In this document: one piece after another, positions 31,164 to 49,243 of the stretch
Layout of the letters: each line of letters opens with the position of its first letter
How positions within the stretch are numbered: the stretch's first letter is position 1
Source of the DNA: an uncultured Lachnospiraceae bacterium
GTDB taxonomy: Bacteria > Bacillota > Clostridia > Lachnospirales > Lachnospiraceae
Length of the DNA stretch: 64,000 bases
Assembly (NCBI GenBank): GCA_944381485.1
Contig: CALWLI010000001.1
Span: 60,634-124,633 of the forward strand
Reading direction: 5' to 3'
The notes under the pieces: model-generated
Seen by the model: only the letters and a program-made list of their open reading frames with translations
Database searches by the model: none
Told to the model about the DNA's origin: nothing
Translations under genes and position numbers: made by a program

Positions 31164-31173
31164 GGAGGACAGT

Positions 31174-32220: not shown

Positions 32221-32226
32221 TTTAAA

Positions 32227-33027
32227 ATGAAGCTGTTTATCAGTGCTGACATTGAGGGCTGCATCGGCACAACTTTAAGTGCCGAGACCCACAAGGAGGA
32301 GGCTTGCTATCGTCCCTTCGCAGAGGAGATGACGAGAGAGGTGGCGGCTGTATGTGAGGCCTTGATAGAGGCCGGAGCTGATGAGATAGTAGTAAAGGAT
32401 GGGCACGGGGATGCGACAAACATAGATTTTTCGGCTCTCCCCGAGAAGGTAAAGCTCATAAGAGGAAAGAGCGGACATCCCTTCAACATGATGTTTGGTC
32501 TGGACGAGAGCTTTGACGCTGTGCTTTATGTGGGCTACCATGCCCCGGCAGGCTGCGGAGGAAACCCCATAAGCCATACTTCCACGGGAAACAGCAACCA
32601 TATTTATCTCAACGGAAAGCTTATGAGTGAGTTTATGCTCAACAGCTACACAGCGGCCCTGTTTAAAGTCCCTGTAGTTTTTGTTTCGGGAGATGAGGCA
32701 ATATGCTCTCTGGCAAAGGAGATGGTCCCCGGGATAACCACGGCTCCTGTAAAGAAGGGGGTGGGTGCATCCACCATAAATATGAGTTTGCCTGAAGGCC
32801 TGAGATTTCTCAGGGAAAGGGCAAAGGCTGCCGTTTCAGGGGATCTGTCCTCCTGCAGGATAGAGCTTCCTGAGAAGTTTGAGTATGTGGTAAACTATAA
32901 AGACCTAAAAAAAGCTTATCAGATGTCCTTCTTCCCGGGAGCGGAGAGGGTGGACGAGCGCACAAACAGGGTCGTAAGCGGAGATTGGAAGGATATTGTC
33001 ACAGCTCATTCATTCATGGTATATTGA
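32227..33027 (+). CDS. M55 family D-aminopeptidase (DppA type)
   Basis: This 266-residue zinc peptidase of family M55 resembles Bacillus DppA, which releases N-terminal D-amino acids. The metal ligands Asp8 and Glu10 lie in ISADIEG, with further conserved DGHGDATN (about 58-65) and GYHAPAG and NPISHTSTGN (about 104-125). It starts 6 bases after the DppF-type gene, so it is co-transcribed with the transporter. The operon therefore probably imports and hydrolyses D-Ala-containing or other D-peptides, such as peptidoglycan fragments. Confidence 0.9.
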   Translation: MKLFISADIEGCIGTTLSAETHKEEACYRPFAEEMTREVAAVCEALIEAGADEIVVKDGHGDATNIDFSALPEKVKLIRGKSGHPFNMMFGLDESFDAVLYVGYHAPAGCGGNPISHTSTGNSNHIYLNGKLMSEFMLNSYTAALFKVPVVFVSGDEAICSLAKEMVPGITTAPVKKGVGASTINMSLPEGLRFLRERAKAAVSGDLSSCRIELPEKFEYVVNYKDLKKAYQMSFFPGAERVDERTNRVVSGDWKDIVTAHSFMVY

Positions 33028-33040
33028 TTAAACAGGTTAA

Positions 33041-33095
33041 AATATTGATCCTGAGACGGACTCACAAAAAGAGTCCATTCTCAGGGTCAAATATT
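33041..33095. terminator. long stem-loop between D-aminopeptidase and racemase genes
   Basis: AATATTGATCCTGAG pairs with CTCAGGGTCAAATATT, and inside it GGACTC pairs with GAGTCC, with an ACAAAAA loop. No T-run follows. It is a probable transcript stabiliser or partial terminator. Confidence 0.55.
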
Positions 33096-33109
33096 ATGAG
33101 GAGAACATC

Positions 33110-33823
33110 ATGGAAAACAGTTTCAGCGAAAAGAAGATGCTCGGAGTGATAGGGGGAATGGGCCCTCTTGCCACAAAGCTTTTTTATGAGATGATAATAG
33201 AAAAAACCGACGCAAAAACCGATCAGGACAATGTGGATATGCTTATACTCAGCGACGCCTCGATGCCTGACAGAACAGGAGCCATACTTTCAGGGGTCAC
33301 AGGCCCCGTGAGGGACAGAATGCTGAGGGACGCAAACATACTCAAAAATGCGGGCTGCTCAGCTGTGGCTGTCACCTGCAATACAGCCCACTACTTCGTG
33401 GATATGATAGAGGAAGAGGCGGACATAAAATTCATACATATGATAAGAGAGACGGCAAAGGAGCTTCAAAAAAAATTTGAAGGGAAGCGAGTTGCCATAC
33501 TTGCGACTGACGGCACTATAAAGACGGAGCTATATCAAAGGGAAATGATAAAATACGGTGTGGAGCCCTATGCTCCCCCGGAGGAGATACAAAAGAAGGT
33601 AATGCACACAATATACGGGCTGATAAAGCAGAATAAGCCTGCGGATTGGAAATTATGGGATTCAATTGAGATAGGGTGCCTTGACGGGGGCTGCGACGGA
33701 GCTGTCCTTGCCTGCACGGAGCTGTCAGTTGTGAGAAAACAACTCTCCCTGTCAAAAAGCTTCTATGTGGACCCTATGGAGGTCCTTGCGGAAAAGTGTC
33801 TGGAATTTTGCGGGGTGCGCTGA
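33110..33823 (+). CDS. aspartate/glutamate racemase family protein
   Basis: This 237-residue PLP-independent racemase has GVIGGMGPLAT at residues 12-22 and the two catalytic cysteines Cys90 (VTCNTAH) and Cys202 (LACTELS), as in RacD/YgeA aspartate racemases. It interconverts L- and D-Asp or a related acid. Placed directly after a D-aminopeptidase, it could turn released D-Asp or D-Glu into the L-form, which the aspartase/fumarase module upstream can burn. Confidence 0.9.
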   Translation: MENSFSEKKMLGVIGGMGPLATKLFYEMIIEKTDAKTDQDNVDMLILSDASMPDRTGAILSGVTGPVRDRMLRDANILKNAGCSAVAVTCNTAHYFVDMIEEEADIKFIHMIRETAKELQKKFEGKRVAILATDGTIKTELYQREMIKYGVEPYAPPEEIQKKVMHTIYGLIKQNKPADWKLWDSIEIGCLDGGCDGAVLACTELSVVRKQLSLSKSFYVDPMEVLAEKCLEFCGVR

Positions 33824-33841
33824 TCACCTGAGGAGTAGGAT

Positions 33842-35449
33842 ATGGCTTTTACTATAGAAGATGCCTTGAAGCTTAAGGCTCTTGAGGATTGCAAGCTTAT
33901 AGCGGGAGCAAAGGGGACGGGAAGGAAGATCACCTGTATAGACACCATGGAGATACCTGACATAACTCCCTGGCTTAAGAAAAACGAATTGCTTGTCACC
34001 ACAGGTTATTCCATAAAGGACAATGAAAGCGAGGCCCTCTGCAAGATAGTGGAGTGCTTAAAAAAAGCGGGCTCCGCGGGAATGATGATAAAGACAAGGT
34101 TTATAGGAGAGCTTCCGGATAAGTTTATCGAGCTGGCGGATGAGCTGGGTGTGCCGGTGATACACATACCTGATGATATGCCCTTTATAGTGCTCATAAA
34201 TGCCCTTATGAAGGTGGTGGTAAACGAGCAGAACAAACTTCTTGACTATTCCGAGAAGGTAAGAAAGAAGTTTTTTGAGATGGAGATCTCCGAGGGCGGA
34301 TTGAGAAACATCGGCGGAATGATGTATGAGCTATTGAGACGTCCTGTGCTGCTTATAGATAACTATGACAAGGACATATTCGTATTCCCTTCAACAGACA
34401 TCTTCAGCTCTGATATAACAGACTACTATTCTACAACCATCACAAACCTTATAAGGGATATTGATGGGGCGGCCGTAAAACAGATAGGAGAGATGCGGTT
34501 CTATATAAAGGCCATAAAGATACACAACGAGGTTTGCGGATATCTGGCGGTATCTGTATTGGCAGGCGTGAGCCTTGATGAAGAGGACATGGTGGTAATA
34601 GAGCACACAGAGACCATAATGGCCCTTGAGCTCTCAAACAGGGAGACAAGCTATCACAAGCACAGCATAATGGACACGAACCTGTTCACGGACATAATAA
34701 TGGGCAACATAAAAAGCTCCAGCGAAGTGGAGATAAGGGCCAATTATCTGAAATGGCAGAAGATGCCTGTAATAATGGCTGTGATAGACATAAACGGCTT
34801 CGGAGAATTTGCGGAGAAGAAAAGAGAGAAGGAAAATCTTTTTATAAAGCATGAGATATTCTCCGCAATAAGAACACACGCGGGCTCTCTGAAGCTGGAG
34901 TGCACCATAATAAATGAGAGCGACAATTTTATATGTATGCTGCCGAAAAACGGCTACGGAAAGCTTAGTGAGCTCTTTTCAGGGGTGAGAAAATATATAT
35001 ATTCAAAATTCGGTCTCAATCTGAATGTGGGAGTATCAGGTGTTATCAATAATTACACGGATATAGCAAAGGCATATAAGGATGCGGAGGATGCACTTAA
35101 GATAGGAAAGGCTCTTGGGGAGGAGATAGTATTTATAGAAAAATACTGTCTTGAGCAGGCGGTGATCAACAGCTCCGACAGGACTTATCTCAAGTCCTTT
35201 GTAAGGGGCAGTATAGGAAAGCTGGAGGACTATGACAGAGAAAACGAGACGGAGCTGCTTAAGACCTTACATGTTTTAATAAACAATATGGGCATAAGGA
35301 CCAAGACGGCGGAGCAGCTGTTTCTGCACAGAAATACTCTGGCCTACAGGATAAAAAAGATAGAGCAGATACTGGAGTGTGACCTTTCCAAAGAGGAAAA
35401 GCTCTTGGATCTTGGCATAGCGATAAGGCTGTCAAAGCTTATAGGATAG
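33842..35449 (+). CDS. PucR-family transcriptional regulator
   Basis: This 535-residue protein has an N-terminal PucR domain (residues 5-125, starting IEDALKLKALEDCKLIAG), a central GGDEF-like CdaR region and a C-terminal helix-turn-helix of the HTH_30 type (TAEQLFLHRNTLAYRIKKIE near 498-517). PucR proteins activate purine, amino acid or sugar acid catabolic genes. It starts 18 bases after the racemase and ends at a terminator. Candidate targets are the dpp operon it belongs to, the ECF operon just downstream, or the purine genes 10 kb away; sequence alone does not decide. Confidence 0.9.
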   Translation: MAFTIEDALKLKALEDCKLIAGAKGTGRKITCIDTMEIPDITPWLKKNELLVTTGYSIKDNESEALCKIVECLKKAGSAGMMIKTRFIGELPDKFIELADELGVPVIHIPDDMPFIVLINALMKVVVNEQNKLLDYSEKVRKKFFEMEISEGGLRNIGGMMYELLRRPVLLIDNYDKDIFVFPSTDIFSSDITDYYSTTITNLIRDIDGAAVKQIGEMRFYIKAIKIHNEVCGYLAVSVLAGVSLDEEDMVVIEHTETIMALELSNRETSYHKHSIMDTNLFTDIIMGNIKSSSEVEIRANYLKWQKMPVIMAVIDINGFGEFAEKKREKENLFIKHEIFSAIRTHAGSLKLECTIINESDNFICMLPKNGYGKLSELFSGVRKYIYSKFGLNLNVGVSGVINNYTDIAKAYKDAEDALKIGKALGEEIVFIEKYCLEQAVINSSDRTYLKSFVRGSIGKLEDYDRENETELLKTLHVLINNMGIRTKTAEQLFLHRNTLAYRIKKIEQILECDLSKEEKLLDLGIAIRLSKLIG

Positions 35450-35516
35450 AGGGTAGCTCTCAAAAGACAAAAGAAAAGAGAAAGGCTGCAGCCCGGAAAA
35501 ATATATATAAGAAGAT

Positions 35517-35550
35517 AAGGATCTGTCACAGAGACAGGTCCTTTTATTTT
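35517..35550 (+). terminator. intrinsic terminator after pucR
   Basis: AAGGATCTGTC (35517-35527) pairs with GACAGGTCCTT (35533-35543) with one G-T pair and a 5-base loop, followed by TTATTTT. Confidence 0.85.
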
Positions 35551-35584
35551 GCGAAAGGAAAGGCTTAGAGGAAATAATATCTAC

Positions 35585-35599
35585 TGTGCATGCTGCACA
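35585..35599. promoter_or_regulatory. inverted repeat upstream of the ECF operon, operator candidate
   Basis: TGTGCA TGC TGCACA is a perfect 6+3+6 repeat, about 60 bases upstream of the candidate -10 at 35656. It could be a PucR or other regulator site. The 288-base gap 35450-35737 also holds the pucR terminator and the promoter. Confidence 0.45.
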
Positions 35600-35655
35600 A
35601 AAAGAGGCGATAATATAGGACTGCCCCGCACAATGTAAATTTTTGTAGTTGTTGT

Positions 35656-35661
35656 TATAAT
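35656..35661 (+). promoter_or_regulatory. -10 element of the ECF operon promoter
   Basis: A consensus TATAAT lies 77 bases before the ATPase start. No good -35 is present at 16-18 bases, which fits an activator-dependent promoter. Confidence 0.45.
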
Positions 35662-35737
35662 ACACACATAAAAATAAAAAAAGAATAAATTTATTGTTAA
35701 ATTTTACAAGCAAAAAGAGGAGGGAGGCTAAAAAAGA

Positions 35738-37477
35738 ATGGGCGAATTGATCAGATTCGATCACGTTTCATACACATACCCCGGCGCAGATGATCCTGCC
35801 GTGGATGATGTGTCTCTTTCAATTAATGAAGGGGAAATTGTGCTTATCACAGGACCTTCAGGTGCAGGAAAGACAACTCTGTGCTCAATGCTCAACAGGA
35901 TAGTTCCTGAGTCCTACGGAGGTGATATCTCCGGAAAAATATTTATAGAGGGGGCGGATATATCTCAATATACCATCGGTCAGATGGCATTTATATCAGG
36001 ACTTCTTTTCCAGGATCCCAGCGGACAGCTTACCAGCGCCACTGTCGGAGACGAGATAGCCTTCGGACCCGAGAACAAGGGGCTTCCTGTTGACAAGATC
36101 AATTCATTGGTGGACGAGTACATAGGCTATGTGAATATGCAGAAGTTTATAAAGCGTCCGCCTCAGGCACTTTCCGGAGGACAGCAGCAGTCAATAGTCT
36201 ACGCATCAGTCCTTGCCATGGAGCCTGAGATATACATACTCGACGAACCCACATCAAACCTCGATCCCCTTGGAAGCGACCTGGTATTCAGACTTATGAA
36301 GAAGGTTGCCACGGACAAGAAAAAGACGGCGATCATAGTCGAGCACAAGCTTGAAAAGATAATAGATATGGTGGACCGCATCATAATCATGGATAAGGGA
36401 AAGATAGCCTTTAACGGTACACCTAAGGATGTGCTCTCCCACTATAAGGAGCTCTCTCAAATAGGAGTGGAGGTCCCTCAGATCGATCAGGTAATAAACA
36501 GGATCAACGAAGAAAAGGGATACAAGCTTCCTGCCCCTATCACCCTTTCCGAGGGCGTGAATGAGCTTAAGTCGATACTCCCTGAAAAGCTGCCTGTGGA
36601 TGCCATGCAGGCGGTGGGCAGAACCTTCAAGGAGCCGAGGAAGTTTGACAAGCCTATCATAGAAGTGAAAGATCTTCACTTTTACTACAACCCGGAGGTG
36701 GAAATACTTCACGGTATTAATATGGACATTTACGACGGAGAATTCCTCTCCATAGTCGGACAGAACGGTTCAGGAAAGACCACCATAGTCAAGACCTTCA
36801 ACGGTCTTCATAAGCCCACAGGAGGCAGCGTAATAGTAAAGGGAGTGGACACAAAGAATGCTACAGTGGCAAAGCTGTCAAGAAGCGTAGGCTACTGCTT
36901 CCAGAACCCCGACCATCAGATCTTCTCATCAGTGGTCAGAGACGAACTGACCTACGGCCCAAAAAATGTGGGAATGCCTCAGGAAGAGATAGACAAGATC
37001 GTTGATGAAGTGGCAAAGATGATAGGCATTGAGGACATACTGGATGAAAACCCCTACAACCTGTCAAAGGGACAGCGTCAGCAGATAGCTGTTGCAGCCA
37101 TACTTACAATGCAGCCTGATGTAATAGTTGTAGATGAGCCCACAACCGGACAGGATCCCAGACAGAGCCATCAGATGATGGACATGGTCAAGAAGCTCAA
37201 TACAGACTACGGAAAGACCATAGTTGTCATCACCCACGATATGAGCATTGCAGCGGAGTATTCCGACAGGATAATCACCATGCATAACGGTACCATAATC
37301 GCTCAAGGAACTCCCAGAGAGGTGTTTAAGGAGGAGGAGATGCTGAACTCATCAAACCTTGAGCCCCCTCAGGTGACGAGGCTCTTAAAGAGGGCGGGGA
37401 TCACAGATCCTGTAGCTATAGATGTGGATGAGGCTATGCAGCTTCTCTCTACCATGGATTTAAAGAAGGAGGCATAG
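35738..37477 (+). CDS. ECF transporter fused ATPase (EcfA-EcfA')
   Basis: This 579-residue protein has two full ABC ATPase domains in tandem. Domain 1 has Walker A GPSGAGKTT (about 39-47), signature LSGGQQQ and Walker B YILDEPTSNLD. Domain 2 has Walker A GQNGSGKTT (about 340-348), signature LSKGQRQQ and VVDEPTTGQD. Fused ATPases are typical of some energy-coupling-factor vitamin/metal transporters such as YkoD. A long ribosome binding site GAGGAGGGAGG precedes the ATG. T protein, small membrane protein and S component follow in the same operon, so this is a dedicated transporter rather than a shared module. Confidence 0.92.
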   Translation: MGELIRFDHVSYTYPGADDPAVDDVSLSINEGEIVLITGPSGAGKTTLCSMLNRIVPESYGGDISGKIFIEGADISQYTIGQMAFISGLLFQDPSGQLTSATVGDEIAFGPENKGLPVDKINSLVDEYIGYVNMQKFIKRPPQALSGGQQQSIVYASVLAMEPEIYILDEPTSNLDPLGSDLVFRLMKKVATDKKKTAIIVEHKLEKIIDMVDRIIIMDKGKIAFNGTPKDVLSHYKELSQIGVEVPQIDQVINRINEEKGYKLPAPITLSEGVNELKSILPEKLPVDAMQAVGRTFKEPRKFDKPIIEVKDLHFYYNPEVEILHGINMDIYDGEFLSIVGQNGSGKTTIVKTFNGLHKPTGGSVIVKGVDTKNATVAKLSRSVGYCFQNPDHQIFSSVVRDELTYGPKNVGMPQEEIDKIVDEVAKMIGIEDILDENPYNLSKGQRQQIAVAAILTMQPDVIVVDEPTTGQDPRQSHQMMDMVKKLNTDYGKTIVVITHDMSIAAEYSDRIITMHNGTIIAQGTPREVFKEEEMLNSSNLEPPQVTRLLKRAGITDPVAIDVDEAMQLLSTMDLKKEA

Positions 37478-37481
37478 AAGG

Positions 37482-38300
37482 ATGGAGAACAATAAGATAG
37501 AGAAATCTTTCATATACAGCCTTGACCCCAGGACCAAGATGCTCATATTGCTGCTCATGATATTTATAGGTGTCATGGTTATGGATCCCTTTTGTACACT
37601 GATAATTATATTTTGTGTCTATTTGACATACAGGGCCAACGGATTTTCAAATAAGCAGGTATGGAAGACCACAAAACCCTTGCTCTTTGCTTTTGTACTG
37701 TTTTTCATCCTGAATTTTCCTTTTGCCACACCCCTTCCCGACGAGGAGGTCTACTTCAAGGTACTCTCAATACCTGTGACAATGACGGGAATACTTACGG
37801 GACTTGGAAATGCTCTGAGATTTATGATGTTCATATGGATAGCAGACCTTATAACCCAGGTAACTCCCACGGGAGACATAGTTCTGGCTCTCAATAAAGC
37901 CCATGTTCCCCCGGAGGCCTCAATAGCAATAGGCATAGCCTTTTCCTACATCCCTGTTCTCAAAAAGGAGATAGGAACTATCATAGAGGCTCAGAAGTCA
38001 AGAGGAGCAAACTTTGAGAGCAAGAATGTATTCAAAAAGATAAAGGCCTATATACCGGTAATCGTACCCGGACTTTTCATCTCAATAATGAGAGGAAGAG
38101 ATATAGCCAGAGCCATAGAGGCCAGAGGATTTACCTATGACCCTGTAAACAGAACATACAGAAATGAGATAAAGCTCAGAGGCAGAGATTTTGCTGTGAT
38201 AGCTTTTATGCTCATACTCTTCTGTATCATAGCTTACTTGAGCATAACAAAAGGCTGGTTCGGAACAAGGTTCGTGTATACGCTCATGACCCGGTCTTAA
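37482..38300 (+). CDS. ECF transporter transmembrane protein EcfT
   Basis: This 272-residue protein has five or six membrane spans. A C-terminal cytoplasmic helix pair carries the EcfT coupling motifs, AQKSRGANFE near 168 and the Ala-Arg-Gly type IEARGF near 211, that contact the ATPases. It begins 4 bases after the ATPase stop. It scaffolds the S component encoded two genes downstream. Confidence 0.92.
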   Translation: MENNKIEKSFIYSLDPRTKMLILLLMIFIGVMVMDPFCTLIIIFCVYLTYRANGFSNKQVWKTTKPLLFAFVLFFILNFPFATPLPDEEVYFKVLSIPVTMTGILTGLGNALRFMMFIWIADLITQVTPTGDIVLALNKAHVPPEASIAIGIAFSYIPVLKKEIGTIIEAQKSRGANFESKNVFKKIKAYIPVIVPGLFISIMRGRDIARAIEARGFTYDPVNRTYRNEIKLRGRDFAVIAFMLILFCIIAYLSITKGWFGTRFVYTLMTRS

Positions 38301-38325
38301 GCAAAAATAAAAGGAGGTGCACAAT

Positions 38326-38514
38326 ATGGATAAAAAAACTGTCCTTGGCATTGTAGGCTTGGTAGTGCTCTTTGCTTTCTTTATAGCATTCAGAGTATTT
38401 TACCAACAGGGGGCGAAGCTTTTGGAGGGCAATACACCCCTTATGATGGGAGCGTTTGCGGTTATCCTGGTATTGCTCGGATTCTTCGCATTTAAGTTCA
38501 CTAAGAAAAAATAG
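38326..38514 (+). CDS. 62-residue two-span membrane protein in the ECF operon
   Basis: The ATG at 38326 follows AAAGGAGG at a good distance; an in-frame GTG at 38317 touches that site and was rejected. The protein is two hydrophobic segments (about 5-24 and 40-57) joined by a short loop, with a basic end FKFTKKK. It lies between EcfT and the S component with about 20-base gaps. The family was not recognised; it may be an accessory subunit, like the small proteins seen in some metal ECF systems. Confidence 0.75.
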   Translation: MDKKTVLGIVGLVVLFAFFIAFRVFYQQGAKLLEGNTPLMMGAFAVILVLLGFFAFKFTKKK

Positions 38515-38534
38515 CAGAAAAGGAGTATCAAACT

Positions 38535-39104
38535 ATGGCAGAAAACGGAAAGCTGGATGTCAAGGAGAGAAAAGCCTTTTTGACATCCAATCAGATAGGA
38601 ATAGCAGCAGCCTTCGGAGGTGCGGCGTTTGCATTCAGAGCATTGGGAATATCTATCCCTGTAGTTCCCCCTCTGGTAATGGATCCGGGAGCATTGATGC
38701 CCTGCCTTGCAGGAATGGCAGGAGGTCCCATAGTAGGCGCGATAGTTGGAATAGCCAGAGCCATTCCTTCAGGAACTCCTATAGTTGATATATGGGCTCA
38801 GCCCATAAAGGGAATATATTGGGCACTGGTTTGGCAGCATGTCATCCTCAAGATAGCAGACCCCAAGAAGAGATGGATAGCCTTCGGTGTGCTGACCATG
38901 CTCCTGCAGTTCTTTGTAGAGCAGCCCATGTCAGTTGGAGGAAATGCATTCCTGCTTCACCTTTATCCCTTCTATCCTACCTGGCCCTTCACTCTGGGAT
39001 GGTATGGAATAGTATACGGAATTTTCCAGATAGTTATATTTGCAGCTATAATAAAAGCGTTCCCGGGACTGTTCGGCTGGAAGACAAACAAAAAGAAAGC
39101 TTAG
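38535..39104 (+). CDS. ECF transporter substrate-binding S component, substrate unknown
   Basis: This 189-residue protein has about six membrane spans, including the glycine-rich stretch MAGGPIVGAIVGIARAIPSG, consistent with an S component. It has no recognised vitamin-specific signature. The operon it ends, together with the following deacylase/racemase genes, suggests an organic amino-acid-like or heterocyclic ligand rather than a common vitamin. A terminator follows. The ribosome binding region and start context (GGAG-TATCAAACTATG) is almost repeated before the M20 gene at 39209. Confidence 0.82.
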   Translation: MAENGKLDVKERKAFLTSNQIGIAAAFGGAAFAFRALGISIPVVPPLVMDPGALMPCLAGMAGGPIVGAIVGIARAIPSGTPIVDIWAQPIKGIYWALVWQHVILKIADPKKRWIAFGVLTMLLQFFVEQPMSVGGNAFLLHLYPFYPTWPFTLGWYGIVYGIFQIVIFAAIIKAFPGLFGWKTNKKKA

Positions 39105-39114
39105 AGTGACATTG

Positions 39115-39150
39115 GCGGGCAGTTTCAAGACTAAGAGCTGCCCGCTTTAT
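39115..39150 (+). terminator. intrinsic terminator after the ECF operon
   Basis: GCGGGCAG (39115-39122) pairs with CTGCCCGC (39138-39145), followed by TTTAT. Read-through to the M20 gene is possible, as the T-run is short. Confidence 0.75.
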
Positions 39151-39208
39151 AAGAGCTTGAAATTTAAAAGGTATAAGTTATTTATTTTTAGAAGGAGAGT
39201 ATCAAACT

Positions 39209-40459
39209 ATGTTGTCAAATAAGGAACTCAAGGATCTGGTGGAGAAGAACAAGGAGGAGCTTTTAAAGCTCTGCAGCGATCTTATAAAAATACCCAGCGT
39301 CAACCCTCCGGGAGATGTGGAGGAGATAGTAGAGTACATATGTAATTATCTCAAGGAACACAACGTATCCTACGAGGTGTTAAGGCCTACTCCCGGAACT
39401 CCTGATATAGTGGCAAGATACGGAAATCCCAACGGAAAAAAACTTATATTGAACGGACACTGCGATGTGGTTCCCATAGGAGACAGGAACAGGTGGGCCT
39501 TCGATCCCTTCTCCGGGGAGATAAAAGACGGAAAGATCCTGGGAAGAGGAACCTCGGATATGAAGTGCGGCCTTGCAGGCCTTATATTTGTAATGTGCCT
39601 CCTTGCCAAGAACAATATAGAGCTTGACGGCGAGATCATTCTCACTGTTGTTCCCGATGAGGAGACCTTCGGTGACTGGGGAACAAAGTGGCTTACCGAG
39701 AGCGGCACAGTTACAGGAGATGCCTGCATCATAGGCGAGCCTACAGGATATTTCAACTGTGAGATAGGCCAGAAGGGAAATGCCAGCTTCAAGCTTATTG
39801 CCGAGGGAACACCCGCCCACGGAAGCCTCTCTCCCTTTGTAGGAGAAAACGCTATCGTAAAGCTTTTGAAGGTGCTCTCAAAGGTGGACAGCATCAGAGA
39901 CATAGTTCCCAGGTACTCCGATGAGGTGGCAGAGGTGATGCAGGAGTCAAGGGAAATGGCCAAGAAGCTCATAGCAGGAAACGGAGCATGGCATGTTGTA
40001 AACCACTGCACAGTGAACATAGGAACCATAAAGGGCGGAACCAAGGTGAATATGGTTGCGGACCACGCTGAGGCGGAGATCGATGTCAGAACACCCATAG
40101 GCGTAACTGTCGAGATGGTGGAGGAGCAGATCGTAAAGATACTCAGAGAGGCTGATGTCAGCAACGTGAGATATGAGATGCTCTACAACGCCGAGGCTAA
40201 CAGCACGGACAGAAAGGCCGACATAGTTGAAGCTGTGGCTCAGAACGTGCTTGATGTATGGGGAGAGGAGCTCAACCGCACATATCAGTGGGCCTCCAGC
40301 GACGCCAGATACTTCAGATATCTCGGCATACCTACTCTGCAGTACGGACCTGCGGATCTTGAGGGAATACATGCCTACAATGAGACCGTGGGAGTTCAGG
40401 ACGTCATTAATGCGGCAAAGGTATATGTGGGAGCAATAACAGACTATCTGAAAAAGTAA
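39209..40459 (+). CDS. M20 family peptidase/deacylase (ArgE/DapE type)
   Basis: This 416-residue di-zinc amidohydrolase has metal/catalytic residues visible as His84 and Asp86 (GHCDVVP), Asp117 (TSDMKCG), Glu151-Glu152 (PDEET) and a dimerisation domain in the middle. The family includes acetylornithine deacetylase, succinyl-DAP desuccinylase, carboxypeptidase G2 and YgeY. Context (ECF importer, racemase, DUF1177, AroM) suggests hydrolysis of an N-acyl or N-carbamoyl amino acid or dipeptide rather than Arg or Lys biosynthesis. AGAAGGAGAG precedes the ATG. A weak promoter (TTGAAA at 39157, TATTTA at 39179) may serve it. Confidence 0.88.
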   Translation: MLSNKELKDLVEKNKEELLKLCSDLIKIPSVNPPGDVEEIVEYICNYLKEHNVSYEVLRPTPGTPDIVARYGNPNGKKLILNGHCDVVPIGDRNRWAFDPFSGEIKDGKILGRGTSDMKCGLAGLIFVMCLLAKNNIELDGEIILTVVPDEETFGDWGTKWLTESGTVTGDACIIGEPTGYFNCEIGQKGNASFKLIAEGTPAHGSLSPFVGENAIVKLLKVLSKVDSIRDIVPRYSDEVAEVMQESREMAKKLIAGNGAWHVVNHCTVNIGTIKGGTKVNMVADHAEAEIDVRTPIGVTVEMVEEQIVKILREADVSNVRYEMLYNAEANSTDRKADIVEAVAQNVLDVWGEELNRTYQWASSDARYFRYLGIPTLQYGPADLEGIHAYNETVGVQDVINAAKVYVGAITDYLKK

Positions 40460-40485
40460 GTCTGAAAAGAAAAGGGAGAATAGCT

Positions 40486-41139
40486 GTGAAGAGATTCAGA
40501 GCGGGAGTTATAAGGGTCATAACTCTTTCCGATCAGAAAATGAGGGACCTTCACGGAGGACTGATAGAGAAGTACATACCCCAAATAGAGACAGAGAGCG
40601 TATGTATAGAGGATCAGCCGGAGGGGGTACACAGTCTTTACACTAAGGCCATGGCTGTGCCCAAGGTTATAAAGGCTGCAGGAAAATTTAAAGATCCGGA
40701 TGTCATCATAGTAAGCTGTGCGGATGATCCGGGAGTACCGGAACTCAGAGAACTGCTCCGCATTCCGGTGGTGGGAGCGGGAAGCTCCGCAGCCGCTTTC
40801 GCAAGGCTCTACGGGAAAAGGACAGGTGTCATAGGAATAACAGACTATGCCCCTGAGCCTTTTGAGAGAGTCTTCGGAGACGGAATAATAAACCTGGGAA
40901 GGCCGGAGGGCGTAAAAAGCACATTGGATTTGATGACAGACAAGGGAAAGAGCAGCGTGATAAAAAAGGCAAAGCAGCTCAAGGAAGCCGGAGCCGACTC
41001 CATATCTCTGGTATGCACCGGAATGAGCACAATAGGAGTGGCCGCGGATATAGAAAGGGCTCTCGATATACCTGTGGTGGATCCGGTCCTTGCAGAGGCG
41101 GTTTTTGCCTATCACGAGATTCTCAGAACTAAAATTTGA
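40486..41139 (+). CDS. Asp/Glu/hydantoin racemase superfamily protein
   Basis: This 217-residue protein has the two-cysteine racemase layout: Cys78 in VSCADDPG and Cys177 in LVCTGMS, about 100 residues apart. RVITLSDQ near the N-terminus resembles the hydantoin/allantoin racemase branch rather than RacD. The start is a GTG at 40486. It lies 26 bases after the M20 deacylase. A racemase next to a deacylase is the classic pairing for resolving both enantiomers of an amide, hydantoin or N-carbamoyl amino acid. Confidence 0.82.
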   Translation: MKRFRAGVIRVITLSDQKMRDLHGGLIEKYIPQIETESVCIEDQPEGVHSLYTKAMAVPKVIKAAGKFKDPDVIIVSCADDPGVPELRELLRIPVVGAGSSAAAFARLYGKRTGVIGITDYAPEPFERVFGDGIINLGRPEGVKSTLDLMTDKGKSSVIKKAKQLKEAGADSISLVCTGMSTIGVAADIERALDIPVVDPVLAEAVFAYHEILRTKI

Positions 41140-41159
41140 AACCAAGGGGAAATATTAGT

Positions 41160-42092
41160 ATGGTAAACAAACAGGTAATAGAGGTATTTGATATATTGGA
41201 CAGGCCTGATGCCTCAGCAGACAAAATAAAGGAGCTTTTTGTTGAGAGGGGAGCCGACAATATTCAGATACACGAGCTTTCAAAAAACGGCAGGAAGACC
41301 CAGTCCATAAAAATAAAGATCAAGGGAAAGAACGGAAAGTCCTCAGGGGGCAGCGCCCCCACTCTGGGCATACTGGGAAGGCTGGGCGGCCTGGGAGCAA
41401 GGCCCGCCATGGAGGGATTTGTTTCTGACGGCGACGGAGCCTTAGCCTCCCTCTCCGCAGCCTTAAAGATCATAGAGATGAACAGCTACGGAGACGTGCT
41501 GGAGGGAGATGTTATAGTATCCACCCACATCTGTCCTGATGCCCCCACCCAGGAGCACAAGCCCGTGCCCTTTATGGGAAATCCGGTAGATATGGAAATG
41601 CTCAACGAGGCAGAGGTGGACGAGGAGATGGATGCCATATTGTCCATAGACACTACCAAGGGTAACAGGATAGTAAACCACAACGGTTTCGCCATAACCC
41701 CCACAGTCAAGGAGGGATACATACTCAAGGTGAGCGAGGATCTTATGGAGATCATGCAGACCTCCACAGGGGAGCTTCCCTGGACCTTCCCCATCACACT
41801 TCAGGATATCACACCCTATGGAAACGGTCTCTACCATGTAAACAGCATACTTCAGCCCTGCACTCATACGAGTGCGCCGGTGGTGGGAGTTGCCATAACG
41901 ACTCAGTCCATGGTACCGGGATGCGCTACGGGAGCCACACATGCGGACGACGTGGAGGAGACATCAAGATTTGTCATAGAGGTGGCAAAACGATTCGGAG
42001 AGGGAAACTGTGCCTTTTACGACAAGGACGAGTTTGAGCTTATGAAGAAAAAATACGGCTCAATGGCCAGGTTCCAGACTCAGGGAGAATAG
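41160..42092 (+). CDS. DUF1177 family protein
   Basis: This 310-residue protein was recognised as DUF1177 from KQVIEVFDILDRPDASADK (residues 4-22) and GGSAPTLGILGRLGGLGARPA (about 65-85). It has many His/Asp/Cys positions in the middle (STHICPDAPTQEHKP) that could bind metal. No function is established for the family, to my knowledge; it often accompanies AroM and Asp/Glu racemase genes. The ATG at 41160 follows AAGGGGA. The frame extends 24 bases upstream into the racemase end, but without a ribosome binding site. Confidence 0.85.
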   Translation: MVNKQVIEVFDILDRPDASADKIKELFVERGADNIQIHELSKNGRKTQSIKIKIKGKNGKSSGGSAPTLGILGRLGGLGARPAMEGFVSDGDGALASLSAALKIIEMNSYGDVLEGDVIVSTHICPDAPTQEHKPVPFMGNPVDMEMLNEAEVDEEMDAILSIDTTKGNRIVNHNGFAITPTVKEGYILKVSEDLMEIMQTSTGELPWTFPITLQDITPYGNGLYHVNSILQPCTHTSAPVVGVAITTQSMVPGCATGATHADDVEETSRFVIEVAKRFGEGNCAFYDKDEFELMKKKYGSMARFQTQGE

Positions 42093-42102
42093 TATTTAAC
42101 AT

Positions 42103-42187
42103 ACAGGCCTTAAAAAGTACATCTTCGACAGCTCTATCATCAGAGATGCTGATTAGCCGAAATGTCTCTTTAAAGGCCTGTTTTTTG
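42103..42187 (+). other. nested RNA fold ending in a T-run before aroM (attenuator or unknown riboswitch candidate)
   Basis: ACAGGCCTT (42103-42111) pairs with AAGGCCTGT (42173-42181) immediately before TTTTTTG. Inside, ACAT (42119-42122) pairs with ATGT (42162-42165), TTCG (42124-42127) with CGAA (42158-42161), CAGC (42129-42132) with GCTG (42148-42151) and TCT with AGA. The fold is concentric, about 85 bases long, and ends 19 bases before the aroM ATG. Confidence 0.65.
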
Positions 42188-42205
42188 TTTGAGACAGGAG
42201 ACGAT

Positions 42206-42877
42206 ATGAAAAAAATAGGTTTTTTAACTATAGGACAATCACTGAGAACGGATGTCACGGGGGAGATACGCGGTTTTTTACCTGAAAATGTGGAGATAGA
42301 AGAGAGCGGAGCCCTGGACGGCCTGGGAGAGAAGGAGATAAAGGAGCTTTGGCCCGAGGAGGGAGAGGAAGTCCTTGTATCAAGGCTTAAAAACGGCGGA
42401 TTTACAAAGATGGGGGAGAAGAAGATAATCCCTCTTATGGAGGAGAGGATAAGGGAGCTGGAGAAAAGGGGCGTGACTATGGCAGTCGTACTCTGCACAG
42501 GCAAATTTCCGGATCTCAAATCCGATATCCCTCTTATATATCCACAGAGACTCCTGTACAAGACAGTGCCTCTTTTCACAAGGGGAAAGTGTATTGCCAC
42601 TGTAAATCCGAGCAGGGACCAATTTGCCCAATCGGAGGCAAACTGGGGAAAGGCCTTTTGTAAGGTAATAGCGACGGAATGCAATCCCTACGGATATAAG
42701 GGGGAGGAGAGTGCTGCGTCCGCGGCTGAGATCATAAGAGATTCAGATGCGGAGCTGGTTGTGGCAGACTGCATAGGATATACAGGAAAAATGAAGGCGG
42801 ATCTTGAAAAACTTACAGGAAAGACAGTCGTCCTTCCCAGAATACTTGTGGCCTCCATAGTGGGGGAGCTGCTATGA
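42206..42877 (+). CDS. AroM family protein
   Basis: This 223-residue protein was recognised by the N-terminal IGFLTIGQSLRTDV (residues 4-17) and the VLCTGKFPDL stretch with a conserved Cys. AroM is named for its place in the E. coli aroL region, but its biochemical role is not known; the fold appears related to Asp/Glu racemase-like proteins. The ATG at 42206 follows CAGGAG; the in-frame extension from 42146 runs through the structured leader and was rejected. It ends with an ATGA overlap into the next gene. Confidence 0.85.
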   Translation: MKKIGFLTIGQSLRTDVTGEIRGFLPENVEIEESGALDGLGEKEIKELWPEEGEEVLVSRLKNGGFTKMGEKKIIPLMEERIRELEKRGVTMAVVLCTGKFPDLKSDIPLIYPQRLLYKTVPLFTRGKCIATVNPSRDQFAQSEANWGKAFCKVIATECNPYGYKGEESAASAAEIIRDSDAELVVADCIGYTGKMKADLEKLTGKTVVLPRILVASIVGELL

Positions 42878-43710
42878 CGATACAGTTTGCTCTTACGGTA
42901 AATGAGGGGAAATATCTCATTGCAAAGGCCATATCAGAGCTTCCTGAGGTGAGAGAGGCGATCTCAGGAGGAAAGCTTGTGCTGAAGGGCGGGACTACGG
43001 TCTCCCTTCTTTCCGAGCTGCTTTTTGATCTGCCCCTAAGAATATCCGGCCGCATGACAAAGAGAGGAGCTGTATCGGCAGCGTCAAACTGTGATGCTCC
43101 ACATACTGTGGCATGGGAAAATGGGAAAATAATAAATCTTGACGAGAAAGTTGAGGAGTACACCTCGGACATGGGGCCCGGGGATGTCATAGTTACAGGG
43201 GCAAATATTATAGACAGAGAGGGAAATGGGGCCCTTCTTGCAGGGAGCAAGTCCGGGGGACTCTGCGGACGGAGCATTTCGGCCTGGAGCGTTGAGGGAG
43301 CCGAGGTCATAATTGCCGCAGGGCTTGAAAAGCTGATACCGGGCAGGGTGGCGGATTCGGTGAGAGCGGCTCACAGAAAAAATGTTGATCTGGCCATGGG
43401 CATGGCCTGTGGTCTGTTTCCCGTCACAGGAAAACTCGTAACCGAGATCGAGGCCGTAGAGATACTTACAGGAATAAAACCTGTGGTAATAGGAAGAGGC
43501 GGCATTTACGGCGCAGAGGGTGGAGTGCTTTTCCAGGCTGAGGGCGAAAATGACAAGGTGGAGAGGCTTTCAGCCCTTGTAAAGGAGTGCAAGGGAAAGG
43601 AAACGGGAGGCGACATAAGAAGTCTTAAGGAGTGCTCCGTGCCTTCCCCGGGATGCAGATATCACCTATCCTGCATGTACAGAAGCGGAAATGACCGGAC
43701 AAAGAGGTAA
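42874..43710 (+). CDS. unrecognised 278-residue protein, translationally coupled to aroM
   Basis: The start overlaps the aroM stop (ATGA). The protein opens with FALTVNEGKYLIAKAISELP, then has glycine-rich loops KGGTTVS (about 38-44), GPGDVIVTGANIIDREGNGALLAGSKSGG (about 101-129) and VIGRGGIYGAEGGV. The C-terminus has two Cys (PGCRYHLSC). The regular alternation of hydrophobic strands and Gly-rich turns suggests an alpha/beta enzyme with a phosphate, nucleotide or thiol-bound substrate. No signal peptide or membrane span is seen. I do not recognise the family and assign no function; its strict coupling to aroM suggests a joint role. Confidence 0.8.
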   Translation: MTIQFALTVNEGKYLIAKAISELPEVREAISGGKLVLKGGTTVSLLSELLFDLPLRISGRMTKRGAVSAASNCDAPHTVAWENGKIINLDEKVEEYTSDMGPGDVIVTGANIIDREGNGALLAGSKSGGLCGRSISAWSVEGAEVIIAAGLEKLIPGRVADSVRAAHRKNVDLAMGMACGLFPVTGKLVTEIEAVEILTGIKPVVIGRGGIYGAEGGVLFQAEGENDKVERLSALVKECKGKETGGDIRSLKECSVPSPGCRYHLSCMYRSGNDRTKR

Positions 43711-43769
43711 AAATCTTATATCATAAGTTAGAGGAAAAGATATAAATCATCTCAGTCAGGAGGAAAGAC

Positions 43770-45053
43770 ATGTATAAAGAGACAAGTAGAGATCTTCTTA
43801 AATTTATAAAAAACAGCCCCAGCTGCTTCCACGCCGTGGCGGAGATCACAAAAAGACTCTCGGAAAACGGCTTTAAGGAGCTTAAGGAGTCAGACAGATG
43901 GGAGCTTTGCCCGGGAGGATATTTTACAGTCAGGAACAATTCCTCTGTGATCGCCTTCTACATACCGGAGGATCATGACCTCTCTGTAAGGATCACAGCG
44001 GCCCACTCCGACTCCCCCACATTCAAGATAAAGGAAAACCCTGAGATCAGTGTTGAAAACAAATATATTACTCTGAACACGGAAAAGTACGGAGGCATGC
44101 TCTGTGCCCCCTGGTTTGACAGGCCTCTTTCCGTGGCGGGAAGGATATTTGTAAAGGGCGAGGCCTCTGATGGAGAGGGAACAGGAATAAGGGAGCTTAT
44201 GGTAAATGTGGACAGGGATCTCCTTATCATCCCCAATGTGGCCATCCACATGAACAGAAATGTAAATGACGGATATAAGTATGACCCTCAGACAGACATG
44301 CTGCCCCTCTTTGCCATGGGCGGAGAAAAGGGAAGGTTTATGAGGATCATCGCCGAGAGTGCAGGAGTGGATGAGAAGGATATACTTGGCCATGACCTGT
44401 ATCTCTACAATCGCGCGGAGGGAAGCATATGGGGAGCTGAGGACGAGTTTGTATCCTCGGCAAAGCTGGATGATCTCCAGTGCGCCTACAGTACACTCAC
44501 AGGCTTCATTAAGGGCTCCAAGAAAAAGCACATAAGCCTTTGCTGTGTGTTTGACAATGAGGAGGTAGGAAGCGGAACAAGACAGGGAGCAGGCTCCACC
44601 TTCCTCTACGATGTGCTGATGCGCATATGCAGAGGGCTGAATGCGGACTATGAGGATTACCTTAGGATGCTTGCGGAGGGGATAATGCTGTCTGCCGATA
44701 ATGCCCACGCTGTCCACCCCAACCACAAGGAGCTTACAGACCCCACAAACAGGGTGTACATAAACGAGGGAATAGTCATAAAATACAATGCTCAGCAAAA
44801 ATACTGCACCGACGGTTTCTCCTCAGCCTTTTTCAAGGCTCTCTGCATGAAGGCCAAGGTGCCTTTCCAGATCTTCGTGAACCGTTCCGACATGCTCGGA
44901 GGTTCGACCTTGGGCAATATATCCAATACTAAGGTGGCCCTTAGGAGCGTGGACATAGGACTGCCTCAGCTTGCAATGCACTCTCCTTATGAGACAGCGG
45001 GAGTGAAGGATACAGAGTACATGATAAAAGCTGTCACAGAGTTTTTTGATTAG
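43770..45053 (+). CDS. M18 family aminopeptidase
   Basis: This 427-residue aspartyl-aminopeptidase-like zinc enzyme has metal ligands visible as His79 and Asp81 (AAHSDSPTF), the FDNEEVGSGTRQGAGS motif near 258 and HAVHPNH (near 312). M18 enzymes remove N-terminal, preferably acidic, residues from peptides in the cytosol, forming large dodecamers. It could complete digestion of peptides imported by the dpp system. CAGGAGGAAAG precedes the ATG. A terminator ends this transcript. Confidence 0.92.
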   Translation: MYKETSRDLLKFIKNSPSCFHAVAEITKRLSENGFKELKESDRWELCPGGYFTVRNNSSVIAFYIPEDHDLSVRITAAHSDSPTFKIKENPEISVENKYITLNTEKYGGMLCAPWFDRPLSVAGRIFVKGEASDGEGTGIRELMVNVDRDLLIIPNVAIHMNRNVNDGYKYDPQTDMLPLFAMGGEKGRFMRIIAESAGVDEKDILGHDLYLYNRAEGSIWGAEDEFVSSAKLDDLQCAYSTLTGFIKGSKKKHISLCCVFDNEEVGSGTRQGAGSTFLYDVLMRICRGLNADYEDYLRMLAEGIMLSADNAHAVHPNHKELTDPTNRVYINEGIVIKYNAQQKYCTDGFSSAFFKALCMKAKVPFQIFVNRSDMLGGSTLGNISNTKVALRSVDIGLPQLAMHSPYETAGVKDTEYMIKAVTEFFD

Positions 45054-45273: not shown

Positions 45274-46974
45274 GTGAAATACGAGAGATTTATGAAAATA
45301 TCCAAGGTCACTCTCGGACAGGAGAAGGCGGACCTTGTACTTAAAAATGCCGAGGTGGTGGACGTTTTTACGGAGGAGACACACAGGGCCGATGTGGCTG
45401 TGTGCGACGGTATTATTGCAGGCATAGGCAGCTACTACGAGGGAAAAGAGGAGATAGACCTTAAGGGCATGTACCTTATGCCGGGATTTATGGATGCCCA
45501 TCTGCACCTTGAGTCCACCATGGTCACACCCAATGAGCTTGTAAGCCTTGCAGCCGCCCACGGCACTACGACATTTATAGTTGATCCCCATGAGGCCGCA
45601 AATGTCTCGGGAACAGCCGGAATAGATTATATTCTGGATCAGACTGAGGGATCTCCAGCCAATGTCTATGTGATGATGCCGTCCTGTGTGCCCGCCACAG
45701 AGTTTGATGATAACGGCTGTGAGCTTACGGCGGAGAAGATGGCTCCCTACCTTAATAATCCGAGGATATTGGGCTTGGGAGAGGTGATGAACGATCCCGG
45801 GGTGGTATACGGAGACAGAAGCCTCCATGAAAAGCTGTCGCTTTTTGAGGAAAAGATCTCGGATGGACATGCCCCTTTTCTTCCCTCCGATGAGCTCTCA
45901 GCCTATGCCCTTGCAGGGATCAGAACAGATCACGAATGCACGGATTATGAGTATGCCATGGAGGAGGTAAGGCGGGGGATCCACGTTCACATAAGGGAGG
46001 GCAGCGCCGCCCACAATCTTGAAGCCATAGTAAAGGGTATAGTTAAACACAACACCCCCACAGACTGCTTTTCCTTCTGTACTGATGACAAGCATATCGA
46101 AGATATCCTCAGAGACGGACATATAGGCTATAATGTGAAAAAGGCCATAGAGCTGGGGCTCTCACCTTTAAAGGCCATAAAGATGGCAACTGTAAATACA
46201 GCGCGCTGCTACGGCCTGAGACATTTGGGGGCTTTGGCTCCCGGGTATCAGGCGGACATGGTAGTTATGGACAGCCTTGAAAAGCCGAATATAAAAGCTG
46301 TGTTCTTTAAAGGAAAAAGGATAGATCCTGAAAAGAAGCCTGAGATAAAGGCCTGTCCAAAGGAGCTTAAAGAGACTGTACATTTAACTAAGCTTAAGGA
46401 GGAGGATTTCAGGCTGCCTGTCAATGGAAATCGAGTTCATATCATAGAGCTTGACCCTTCACAGATAAGCACTAAGCACAGGGAGAAGGCCTTAAGGGAT
46501 ACGGAGAACTATATTCCCGCAAACGGCCTCAACAAGATCGCCGCTGTGGAGAGACATAGGGGAACGGGAATGATAGGAATAGGTATATGCTCTCGCTATG
46601 GTATAGAAAACGGAGCCGTGGCCTCAAGTGTATCCCATGATTCTCACAACATCATAGTTGTGGGGGACAACGACAGAGACATGGCTTTGGCGGTAAACGC
46701 CGTCATAGAGGCCAAGGGAGGATACAGCCTTGTGGAGAAGGGAAAGGTGTACGACATACTTCCCCTTCCCGTCATGGGACTTATGTCCGAGGCGGGCTAT
46801 GAAGAGGTGAGCGAAAAGCTTGAGAGGATGATAAAAAAGGCTCACTCCATGGGGATATCCGACGATGTGGATCCCTTCATAACACTGTCATTCCTTGCAC
46901 TTCCTGTTATACCTGAGATAAGGATAACCCCGAGAGGCCTTCTGGATACAGTCGAGTTTAAATTGATCAAATGA
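45274..46974 (+). CDS. ade: adenine deaminase
   Basis: This 566-residue amidohydrolase converts adenine to hypoxanthine and ammonia. It shows the metal-binding motif GFMDAHLHLESTMV near residue 70 and IVDPHEAANVSGTAG near 105, both diagnostic of bacterial Ade. Length matches the two-domain family. The start is a GTG at 45274 behind GAGGAGGAG. It is first in an ade-yqeB-guaD-xdhABC run that feeds adenine and guanine through hypoxanthine and xanthine toward urate. Confidence 0.94.
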   Translation: MKYERFMKISKVTLGQEKADLVLKNAEVVDVFTEETHRADVAVCDGIIAGIGSYYEGKEEIDLKGMYLMPGFMDAHLHLESTMVTPNELVSLAAAHGTTTFIVDPHEAANVSGTAGIDYILDQTEGSPANVYVMMPSCVPATEFDDNGCELTAEKMAPYLNNPRILGLGEVMNDPGVVYGDRSLHEKLSLFEEKISDGHAPFLPSDELSAYALAGIRTDHECTDYEYAMEEVRRGIHVHIREGSAAHNLEAIVKGIVKHNTPTDCFSFCTDDKHIEDILRDGHIGYNVKKAIELGLSPLKAIKMATVNTARCYGLRHLGALAPGYQADMVVMDSLEKPNIKAVFFKGKRIDPEKKPEIKACPKELKETVHLTKLKEEDFRLPVNGNRVHIIELDPSQISTKHREKALRDTENYIPANGLNKIAAVERHRGTGMIGIGICSRYGIENGAVASSVSHDSHNIIVVGDNDRDMALAVNAVIEAKGGYSLVEKGKVYDILPLPVMGLMSEAGYEEVSEKLERMIKKAHSMGISDDVDPFITLSFLALPVIPEIRITPRGLLDTVEFKLIK

Positions 46975-47030
46975 TATATTCATAAAAGATATAAAACAGC
47001 GGAAATTTCTGATACGGAGATGATGTTAAA

Positions 47031-47855
47031 ATGGACAAGATCATTATAGTAAGAGGCGGAGGTGATCTGGCCACAGGGGTCATATCAGTGCTCCACAAGG
47101 CAGGATTCAATATACTTTCTCTGGAGGCGGAAAAGCCCTCGGCCATAAGGCGAACCGTGGCCTTCAGCGAGGCTGTCTACGAGGGGAGTTCAGAGATCGA
47201 GGGCTTGAAATGCGTGCTGTGCTCTGACCTCGGGGAAGCTGAGGAGGAGATGAAAAATGGCAATGTGGCAATGATGAAGGACCCTGAGTGCGAGGTCTTA
47301 AATAAGATTAGGCCCTTTGCCTTGGTGGACGCCATACTTGCAAAGAAGAATTTGGGAACGAAAAAGGATATGGCTGACATAGTAGTGGCTCTGGGACCCG
47401 GCTTTGAGGCGGGAGTCGACGCGGATATAGTAATAGAGACAAAAAGAGGACATAAGCTCGGCAGGATGTATGAGACGGGCTTCGCTATCCCCAACACAGG
47501 CGTTCCGGGCCTTATAGCAGGCCACTCCTCGGACAGAGTGATACATGCCTCCCATAAGGGCGTACTTTACAACAGAGCCTCCATAGGAGATATAGTAGAG
47601 GAGGGACAGGTCATAGCTGTCATAAGAGATGAGGAGGCAAAGGAACACGAGGTGAAAGCCGGCTTCACAGGACTTTTAAGAGGACTTATAAGGGACGGCT
47701 TTCCCGTGACAGAGGGCTTTAAGATAGCCGACATAGATGCGAGAAAGGAAGAGCACGACAACTGCTTTACCATATCTGACAAGGCCAGAAGCCTTGGGGG
47801 AAGCACTCTGTGTGCAATAATGTATCTTGCGGCAAAGAAGGGCCTGTCTCTGTAA
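47031..47855 (+). CDS. yqeB: YqeB, selenium-dependent molybdenum hydroxylase accessory protein
   Basis: This 274-residue protein begins IIIVRGGGDLATGVISVLHKAGF, a Rossmann-like opening of the YqeB/EF2563 family. It also shows LGPGFEAGVDADIVIETKRGH and NTGVPGLIAGHSSDRVIHA. Family members co-occur with xanthine dehydrogenases that carry a labile selenium at the molybdenum site, and with selD. Its position between ade and guaD, next to xdhABC, predicts that the xanthine dehydrogenase here is the selenium-dependent form. Its exact reaction is not established. Confidence 0.85.
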   Translation: MDKIIIVRGGGDLATGVISVLHKAGFNILSLEAEKPSAIRRTVAFSEAVYEGSSEIEGLKCVLCSDLGEAEEEMKNGNVAMMKDPECEVLNKIRPFALVDAILAKKNLGTKKDMADIVVALGPGFEAGVDADIVIETKRGHKLGRMYETGFAIPNTGVPGLIAGHSSDRVIHASHKGVLYNRASIGDIVEEGQVIAVIRDEEAKEHEVKAGFTGLLRGLIRDGFPVTEGFKIADIDARKEEHDNCFTISDKARSLGGSTLCAIMYLAAKKGLSL

Positions 47856-47887
47856 AGTGCCTTTATCCCATACAGGGAGGAGATATT

Positions 47888-49180: not shown

Positions 49181-49243
49181 TAATATTTCGGAGCAGGATC
49201 GATGTTTCCTCAAAAACATACTGCTTTAATATACGGAGAATGT

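Follow-up and report, generated by a model that had tools for sequence, protein, structure and literature searches.

The window analyzed here is a stretch of 64,000 nucleotides (nt) of an uncultured Lachnospiraceae bacterium (contig 1, positions 60634-124633; the draft assembly has 41 contigs, totals 1.95 Mb and is 91% complete), and it carries on its plus strand a run of genes for a PucR-family regulator, an energy-coupling factor (ECF) importer, an M20 metallo-deacylase, an Asp/Glu/hydantoin racemase family protein, a DUF1177 protein, an AroM protein and a protein of 278 amino acids (aa), referred to below as U278 (Table 1). All genes named in the original prediction, made earlier from the letters of this DNA, were confirmed on this strand close to where it had placed them, and the ATGA overlap that it had reported between aroM and the 278-aa gene is correct (42874-42877). 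Its inventory had, however, overlooked two features, a 62-aa open reading frame (ORF) between the genes for the T and S components of the importer and a stem-loop between the S and M20 genes.

The likelier starts of DUF1177 and AroM are the ATG codons at 41160 and 42206, respectively, each preceded by purine-rich, ribosome-binding-like sequence. With these starts, the DUF1177-AroM gap is 113 nt, and it shrinks to 53 nt with the longer AroM ORF. The remaining gaps are 288 nt (PucR-ECF), 4 nt (A-T), 234 nt (T-S, with the 62-aa ORF inside), 104 nt (S-M20), 26 nt (M20-racemase) and 20 nt (racemase-DUF1177), while AroM and U278 overlap by 4 nt and an M18 aminopeptidase gene begins 59 nt after U278. 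A single transcript running from the ECF genes to the last gene is plausible, but one ECF-to-U278 transcript is not assured, because PucR is followed by a terminator-like hairpin and S by a stem-loop; this stem-loop (39114-39146) is a possible terminator or attenuator and would then set the downstream genes apart. No Rfam element was found at the gathering cut-off.

Table 1. Genes and features of the locus, with positions in the window
Feature	Position	Strand	Evidence or remark
Dpp/Opp-type ABC (ATP-binding cassette) importer, M55 D-aminopeptidase, CuyB-like amino-acid racemase	26530-33823	+	solute-binding protein, one permease, M55 by Pfam
PucR-family regulator (PucR, GGDEF_2, HTH_30)	33842-35449	+	PF07905 E 2e-33, PF13556 E 6e-18
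Terminator-like hairpin, PucR/ECF intergenic	35517-35543	+	11-pair stem then TTATTTT; fold z -4.84
ECF ATPase, A1-A2 fusion (two ABC_tran stretches)	35738-37477	+	TIGR04520 E 9e-149, TIGR04521 E 5e-144
ECF T component	37482-38300	+	PF02361 E 8e-32
62-aa ORF between T and S	38326-38514	+	AGGAGG site, two hydrophobic stretches
Candidate S component, 189-aa membrane protein	38535-39104	+	position, hydropathy, PF07694 E 7e-4 (below cut-off)
Stem-loop between S and M20, then TTTATAAG	39114-39146	+	about -20 kcal/mol; z -2.97; 1/200 shuffles equally good
M20 metallo-deacylase, ArgE/DapE type	39209-40459	+	TIGR01910 E 3e-87, above its cut-off
Asp/Glu/hydantoin racemase family protein	40486-41139	+	PF01177 E 2e-23; invariant Cys 78, 177
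DUF1177 protein	41160-42092	+	PF06675 E 3e-135; alternative TTG start 41136
AroM protein	42206-42877	+	PF07302 E 4e-65; longer ORF from 42146
278-aa protein (U278)	42874-43710	+	ATGA overlap with aroM; no Pfam/NCBIfam family at E<=0.01
M18 aminopeptidase	43770-45053	+	PF02127 E 1e-113; possibly same operon, 59 nt downstream

The catabolic genes of this locus recur together in other genomes. Contigs were scanned with 13 DUF1177 sequences, and the best 80 of at least 565 DUF1177 relatives together with 11 added loci gave a set of 91 loci; L013 and L040, lying on the same contigs as L112 and L047, respectively, are not counted among these. The loci were scanned by tblastn, and the linkage counts are raw counts on the same strand, without a random-locus control; the set includes near relatives, e.g., four Clostridioides difficile and several Blautia loci, and 18 of the 91 have less than 3 kb on one side of DUF1177. 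Within 6 kb of DUF1177, AroM was found at 53 loci (at 42 of the 91 within 300 nt), M29 at 34, the racemase at 28, PucR and S-Me-THD/DUF917 at 26 each, OPT at 23, M20 at 17, U278 and NCS1 with a carbon-nitrogen hydrolase at 6 each, M18 at 4 and hydantoinase A at 2, the S-Me-THD, NCS1/carbon-nitrogen hydrolase and hydantoinase A families having been checked against Pfam on one member each. Within 8 kb, 66 loci had one or more of AroM, S-Me-THD, racemase, M29, M20 and OPT.

DUF1177 and AroM were also surveyed in 391 genomes of the class. DUF1177 was present in 13 of them and AroM by tally also in 13, of which 11 were clear (G109 was dropped, as was G019, whose weak match is its racemase gene). 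Nine of the 11 clear AroM genomes also possess DUF1177, adjoining on the same contig in seven (hypergeometric p 7e-14 for co-occurrence, uncorrected for relatedness). Within the genus, the window's own genome was the only one of 25 with DUF1177. DUF1177 sets also occur on plasmids, as seen in four of the seven plasmid matches, which were examined: OPT, DUF1177, AroM, PepE and racemase in Klebsiella; Dpp, ArgE/DapE, DUF1177 and AroM in Paenibacillus; ABC, DUF917, DUF1177, AroM, aminopeptidase and racemase in the haloarchaeon Salinigranum; and, in Planococcus, DUF1177 surrounded by DUF917, cytosine permease and hydantoinase genes, with no AroM. Gene order, families and the conserved linkage of the catabolic genes are thus matters of observation, and the gene set is real and conserved. 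PucR, racemase, DUF1177 and AroM are common to the window and to the OPT-DUF917-DUF1177-AroM-M29 operons of Blautia, Anaerococcus and others (L047, L117), whereas those operons have OPT and DUF917 where the window has ECF and M20.

Part of this association is in print. The available text of a 2024 study (PMC11055893) describes 274 cyclodipeptide-oxidase (CDO) clusters, 88% of them without a synthase, and reports that the clusters lacking a cyclodipeptide synthase (non-CDPS clusters) are enriched in PF01177 hydantoin racemases, DUF917, AroM, Dpp ABC and OPT transporters and peptidases; its authors suggest hydantoin- or allantoin-like substrates. DUF1177 does not occur in the main text of that paper. 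In our set, CDOA and CDOB relatives stand beside the DUF1177 set at 4 of the 91 loci (L073, L090, L093 and L117, Pfam-checked for L073 and L117; L090 and L093 have identical oxidase proteins), so that the descriptions of the DUF1177 set and of the CDO clusters overlap. At L073, beside the Blautia DUF1177 cluster, a nitroreductase-like CDOA and DUF6092/CDOB domains are joined in one protein (L073:13276-14145). Like the non-CDPS clusters, the window has a hydantoin racemase family protein, AroM and a peptide transporter nearby; unlike them, it has an ECF importer, M20 and U278. CDOB (PF19585), the CDO subunit sought there, had no match in the window's genome, but 14 of 14 controls were equally silent. 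Literature searches yielded nothing on "cyclodipeptidase," only PMC11055893 for "AroM family" and, among the papers listed, none closer to this gene set than PMC11055893. Since the available text of that paper prints the association of racemase, DUF917, AroM, OPT and Dpp, the claim that the pathway is undescribed was too strong; the novelty here is an ECF cassette with M20 and U278 within an already noted, uncharacterised cluster type.

The enzymes of the operon were then compared with known families. The M20 protein scored above the ArgE/DapE cut-off of TIGR01910 (among the best 25 of 54 rows). Among 371 genomes, its own included and with at most four candidates scored per genome, the only other M20 proteins at E<=1e-60 were those of G163 (47% identity) and G369 (41%), both of which sit at DUF1177 loci; the window M20 therefore belongs to a narrow group found, among these genomes, only at DUF1177 loci. 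A profile built from 12 relatives of the racemase matched PDB entry 2eq5, named "hypothetical hydantoin racemase," with an E of 2e-92, which identifies the window protein as a homologue of this entry and a putative hydantoin racemase. An AroM profile in turn matched the racemase alignment (95.3%, E 2e-8, 136 columns) with both conserved Cys regions aligned, and Cys 98 and Cys 190 of AroM are invariant in 13 sequences. On this comparison AroM is a relative within the Asp/Glu racemase superfamily, and a racemase-like predicted structure of AroM was noted earlier (PMC11055893, available text).

For DUF1177, a model computed from 13 sequences had a predicted local distance difference test (pLDDT) score of 78, and Foldseek matched it to M28, M20 and M17 zinc exopeptidases (best E 2.5e-8, TM 0.53 of the query, root mean square deviation 5.4). 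The modeled protein thus resembles an exopeptidase in its predicted fold. A clear position in the tree could not be assigned to the window DUF1177, whose end branch (0.64, against a median of 0.26) falls outside every starred group. The papers found in our literature search described no tested activity for DUF1177 or AroM.

Close relatives of U278 (45-49% identity) number three in the 390 other genomes of the class and all stand beside DUF1177 and AroM; at L015, U278 and AroM form a single fused ORF of 506 aa (L015:2535-4055). Seven weaker relatives (27-35%, L016-L022) were without DUF1177 in the up to 20 kb fetched. All 7 close U278 sequences that were aligned end in a C-x6-C-x2-H-x2-C-x-Y tail, which none of 6 distant ones has (L016-L021, 245-267 aa), and this shared Cys/His pattern suggests a metal-binding tail. 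S-Me-THD is present at all 6 U278 loci among the 91, and the window is without it. Structure matches of U278 were weak and mostly to ribose-1,5-bisphosphate isomerase, eIF2B and CoA-transferase; a ribose-1,5-bisphosphate isomerase fold was rejected (E 4.5e-3, probability 0.99, TM 0.23, with none at E<=0.001), and a weak profile match to 6-phosphogluconate dehydrogenases (E 0.009) was not trusted. A single-sequence search with U278 gave no match in genome contigs, nor was there one in plasmids.

Upstream of these genes lies a dedicated ECF cassette, in which two ATPase domains and a T component stand together with a candidate S gene. Dedicated ECF transporters form the class named group I, and those for vitamins likewise have A1-A2, T and S in one cassette; unlike them, the window has an S protein outside the families above cut-off, adjoining amide-hydrolase and racemase genes, and the extra 62-aa ORF. 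This ORF may encode a small subunit of the transporter; none of the 91 loci has a relative of it. The S protein is a candidate by its operon position, its hydropathy and its sole family match, PF07694 (below cut-off), a match that fits the S-component fold reported for this family in the available part of PMC11109136. Its relatives in the 390 other class genomes came to 3 partial matches (best E 5.6e-4), none was found in plasmids, and the PDB held none meaningful (best E 1). A vitamin S component was rejected, since the protein exceeded the cut-off of no Pfam or NCBIfam family and matched nothing in the PDB at a meaningful E-value, and the close vitamin relative that would have told against the original prediction did not appear.

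Transporters of other types occupy the corresponding place elsewhere. OPT, Dpp or NCS1 lay within 8 kb at 48 of the 91 loci and a DUF3100 membrane protein at five more, while 38 had none of these; a Dpp-type solute-binding protein was found within 8 kb at 21. When the order PucR-OPT-racemase (L013, L047) is set against PucR-ECF-M20-racemase in the window, the ECF cassette corresponds in position to a peptide importer. In Clostridioides difficile (L084, L094, L110 and L111), a DUF3100 protein, a small 2HCT-like membrane protein and an M20-type hydrolase precede DUF1177, perhaps another transporter type in the same slot. Matches to the window ECF ATPase were seen at 45 of the 91 loci (20 within 6 kb on the same strand), but ECF linkage was rejected as their explanation: with the window oppD and oppF as rivals, 71 of 89 ATPase matches lay nearer to oppD/oppF; the 16 longer matches that remained with ECF-A had 21-35% identity, so they were taken as other ABC ATPases. 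On contig 3 of the same genome (L156, 30000-48000), two further ECF cassettes stand beside catabolic-looking genes, named by sequence reading: purine-nucleoside phosphorylase- and nucleoside hydrolase-like genes, and an M20 with an amidohydrolase. Catabolic use of ECF importers thus appears not foreign to this organism. A fourth T domain, on contig 4, is part of a fused 870-aa protein.

Taken together, we tentatively favor the reading that the operon catabolises a small peptide-derived amide (a cyclic dipeptide or hydantoin-like ring, or else an amino acid or dipeptide that is N-blocked) taken up by a dedicated ECF importer. A peptide-derived amide is the best-supported substrate class, which we would hold with confidence just short of even. 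Ergothioneine breakdown includes the desulfurisation of a thiohydantoin by a DUF917 protein, background that our literature search did not turn up. The S-Me-THD/DUF917, NCS1 with carbon-nitrogen hydrolase and hydantoinase A genes of relatives favor an amide- or hydantoin-type amino-acid derivative, which agrees with the amide-bonded or heterocyclic amino acid derivative proposed before, although the importer's part in that proposal rests on position. In the mechanism envisaged, the ECF importer, perhaps with the 62-aa helper, would fill the OPT/Dpp/NCS1 slot and take up the compound; DUF1177 and M20 would cleave amide bonds inside the cell; the hydantoin racemase homologue and AroM would invert the alpha carbon, making both enantiomers usable; the aminopeptidase would complete the breakdown; PucR would switch the operon on; and U278 would be an accessory protein. 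The upstream Dpp/Opp-type ABC importer is a possible second importer of the pathway. A bolder version seems rather unlikely: a dedicated ECF importer, recruited from vitamins, would serve the catabolism of a nutrient resembling a cyclic dipeptide or hydantoin, DUF1177 would be a new amide or ring hydrolase of exopeptidase fold, AroM would act as a racemase, and U278, with its Cys/His tail, would be an extra enzyme.

Several observations weigh against the favored reading. It is drawn from the genes, from which we infer the substrate class, the ECF specificity, the step of each enzyme and the regulation. The first metal-binding motif of M28 and M20 enzymes, which we take to be H-x-D, was not evident by inspection of the DUF1177 alignment, so catalysis by DUF1177 is not certain. 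In the hydantoinase/N-carbamoylase pathway, a hydantoin racemase acts with an M20-family amidohydrolase. The original prediction had invoked this logic, and the window indeed has a racemase homologue and an M20-family amidohydrolase; unlike that pathway, its M20 scores above the cut-off of the ArgE/DapE subfamily and no hydantoinase was recognised among the scanned operon proteins, the genome-wide search having covered PF06032 only. DUF917/S-Me-THD (PF06032) was not found in the draft genome (controls were positive in 2 of 14 genomes). At 25 of the 91 loci, some of them short contigs, the same strand carried none of AroM, S-Me-THD, racemase, M29, M20 and OPT within 8 kb. Mutual exclusion of M20 and DUF917 was not significant (2 loci have both; Fisher p 0.08). 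Sign tests on the tree gave no significant joint gain of DUF917 either with OPT (median p 0.125) or with AroM (median p 0.5). Lastly, the ECF arrangement is a single instance, in a draft genome, and the S gene was found in 0 of 24 other genomes of the genus.

The ECF importer is also where the main rival departs from this reading. That it imports the pathway's substrate is the weakest link of our argument: with three T and three S queries (from the window and two others of the same genome, E<=1e-4), ECF T or S genes were found at 0 of the 91 other DUF1177 loci, so that a role of the importer in the pathway rests on its position. The linkage anticipated by the original prediction accordingly holds for DUF1177, AroM, racemase, M20, PucR and the 278-aa protein (6 of 91 loci), but fails for the S component. 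The cassette might then be independent and serve a vitamin-like or other nutrient, the catabolic genes being fed by the Dpp-type ABC importer (26530-32220) that lies 3.5 kb upstream of the ECF genes; the stem-loop and 104-nt gap that separate S from M20 and the Dpp-type solute-binding genes near DUF1177 at 21 of 91 loci fit this arrangement. The ECF genes, however, lie between PucR and the catabolic genes, the place of OPT in L013 and L047, the other ECF cassettes of the genome adjoin catabolic-looking genes, and the S protein matches no known family above cut-off. We regard an independent cassette as possible, if doubtful.

Two other explanations concern the substrate. Linear peptides containing D-amino acids, e.g., cell-wall fragments, could be degraded by racemases and several exopeptidases with no ring chemistry, as the M55 D-aminopeptidase, M20, M18 and three racemase-superfamily proteins within 32227-45053 and the Dpp and OPT transporters of relatives would allow. 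M55, however, was found at one locus of the 91, and at none within 6 kb of DUF1177, and rings are suggested by the DUF917, hydantoinase A, NCS1 and cyclodipeptide oxidase genes that some relatives carry; this explanation is improbable. A purine cluster lies downstream of the operon (45274-52746), where adenine deaminase and molybdenum hydroxylase subunits are accompanied by a further amidohydrolase. The substrate might be a purine breakdown product, an allantoin- or hydantoin-like ring, linked to these genes, and the PucR-type regulator, the adenine deaminase and molybdenum hydroxylase subunits that follow, and NCS1 permeases with carbon-nitrogen hydrolase at 6 of 91 loci are in keeping with this. 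Molybdenum hydroxylase relatives at 3 of 91 DUF1177 loci (L043, L045 and L104; 2 within 8 kb on the same strand) likewise count for it and against a peptide-derived amide. Yet adenine deaminase and YqeB relatives were found at 0 of 91 and guanine-deaminase-like matches (20-25% identity) at 2, and peptide-type transporters are commoner than NCS1 (OPT 23, Dpp 21 and NCS1 6 of 91), which leaves a purine product somewhat less probable still.

The favored reading, catabolism of a peptide-derived amide, ties DUF1177 and AroM, in bacteria and archaea, to one repeatedly reassembled gene set, and would make a testable pathway out of two orphan families. If the ECF importer takes up the same compound, ECF transport would be extended from micronutrients to a peptide-derived nutrient.

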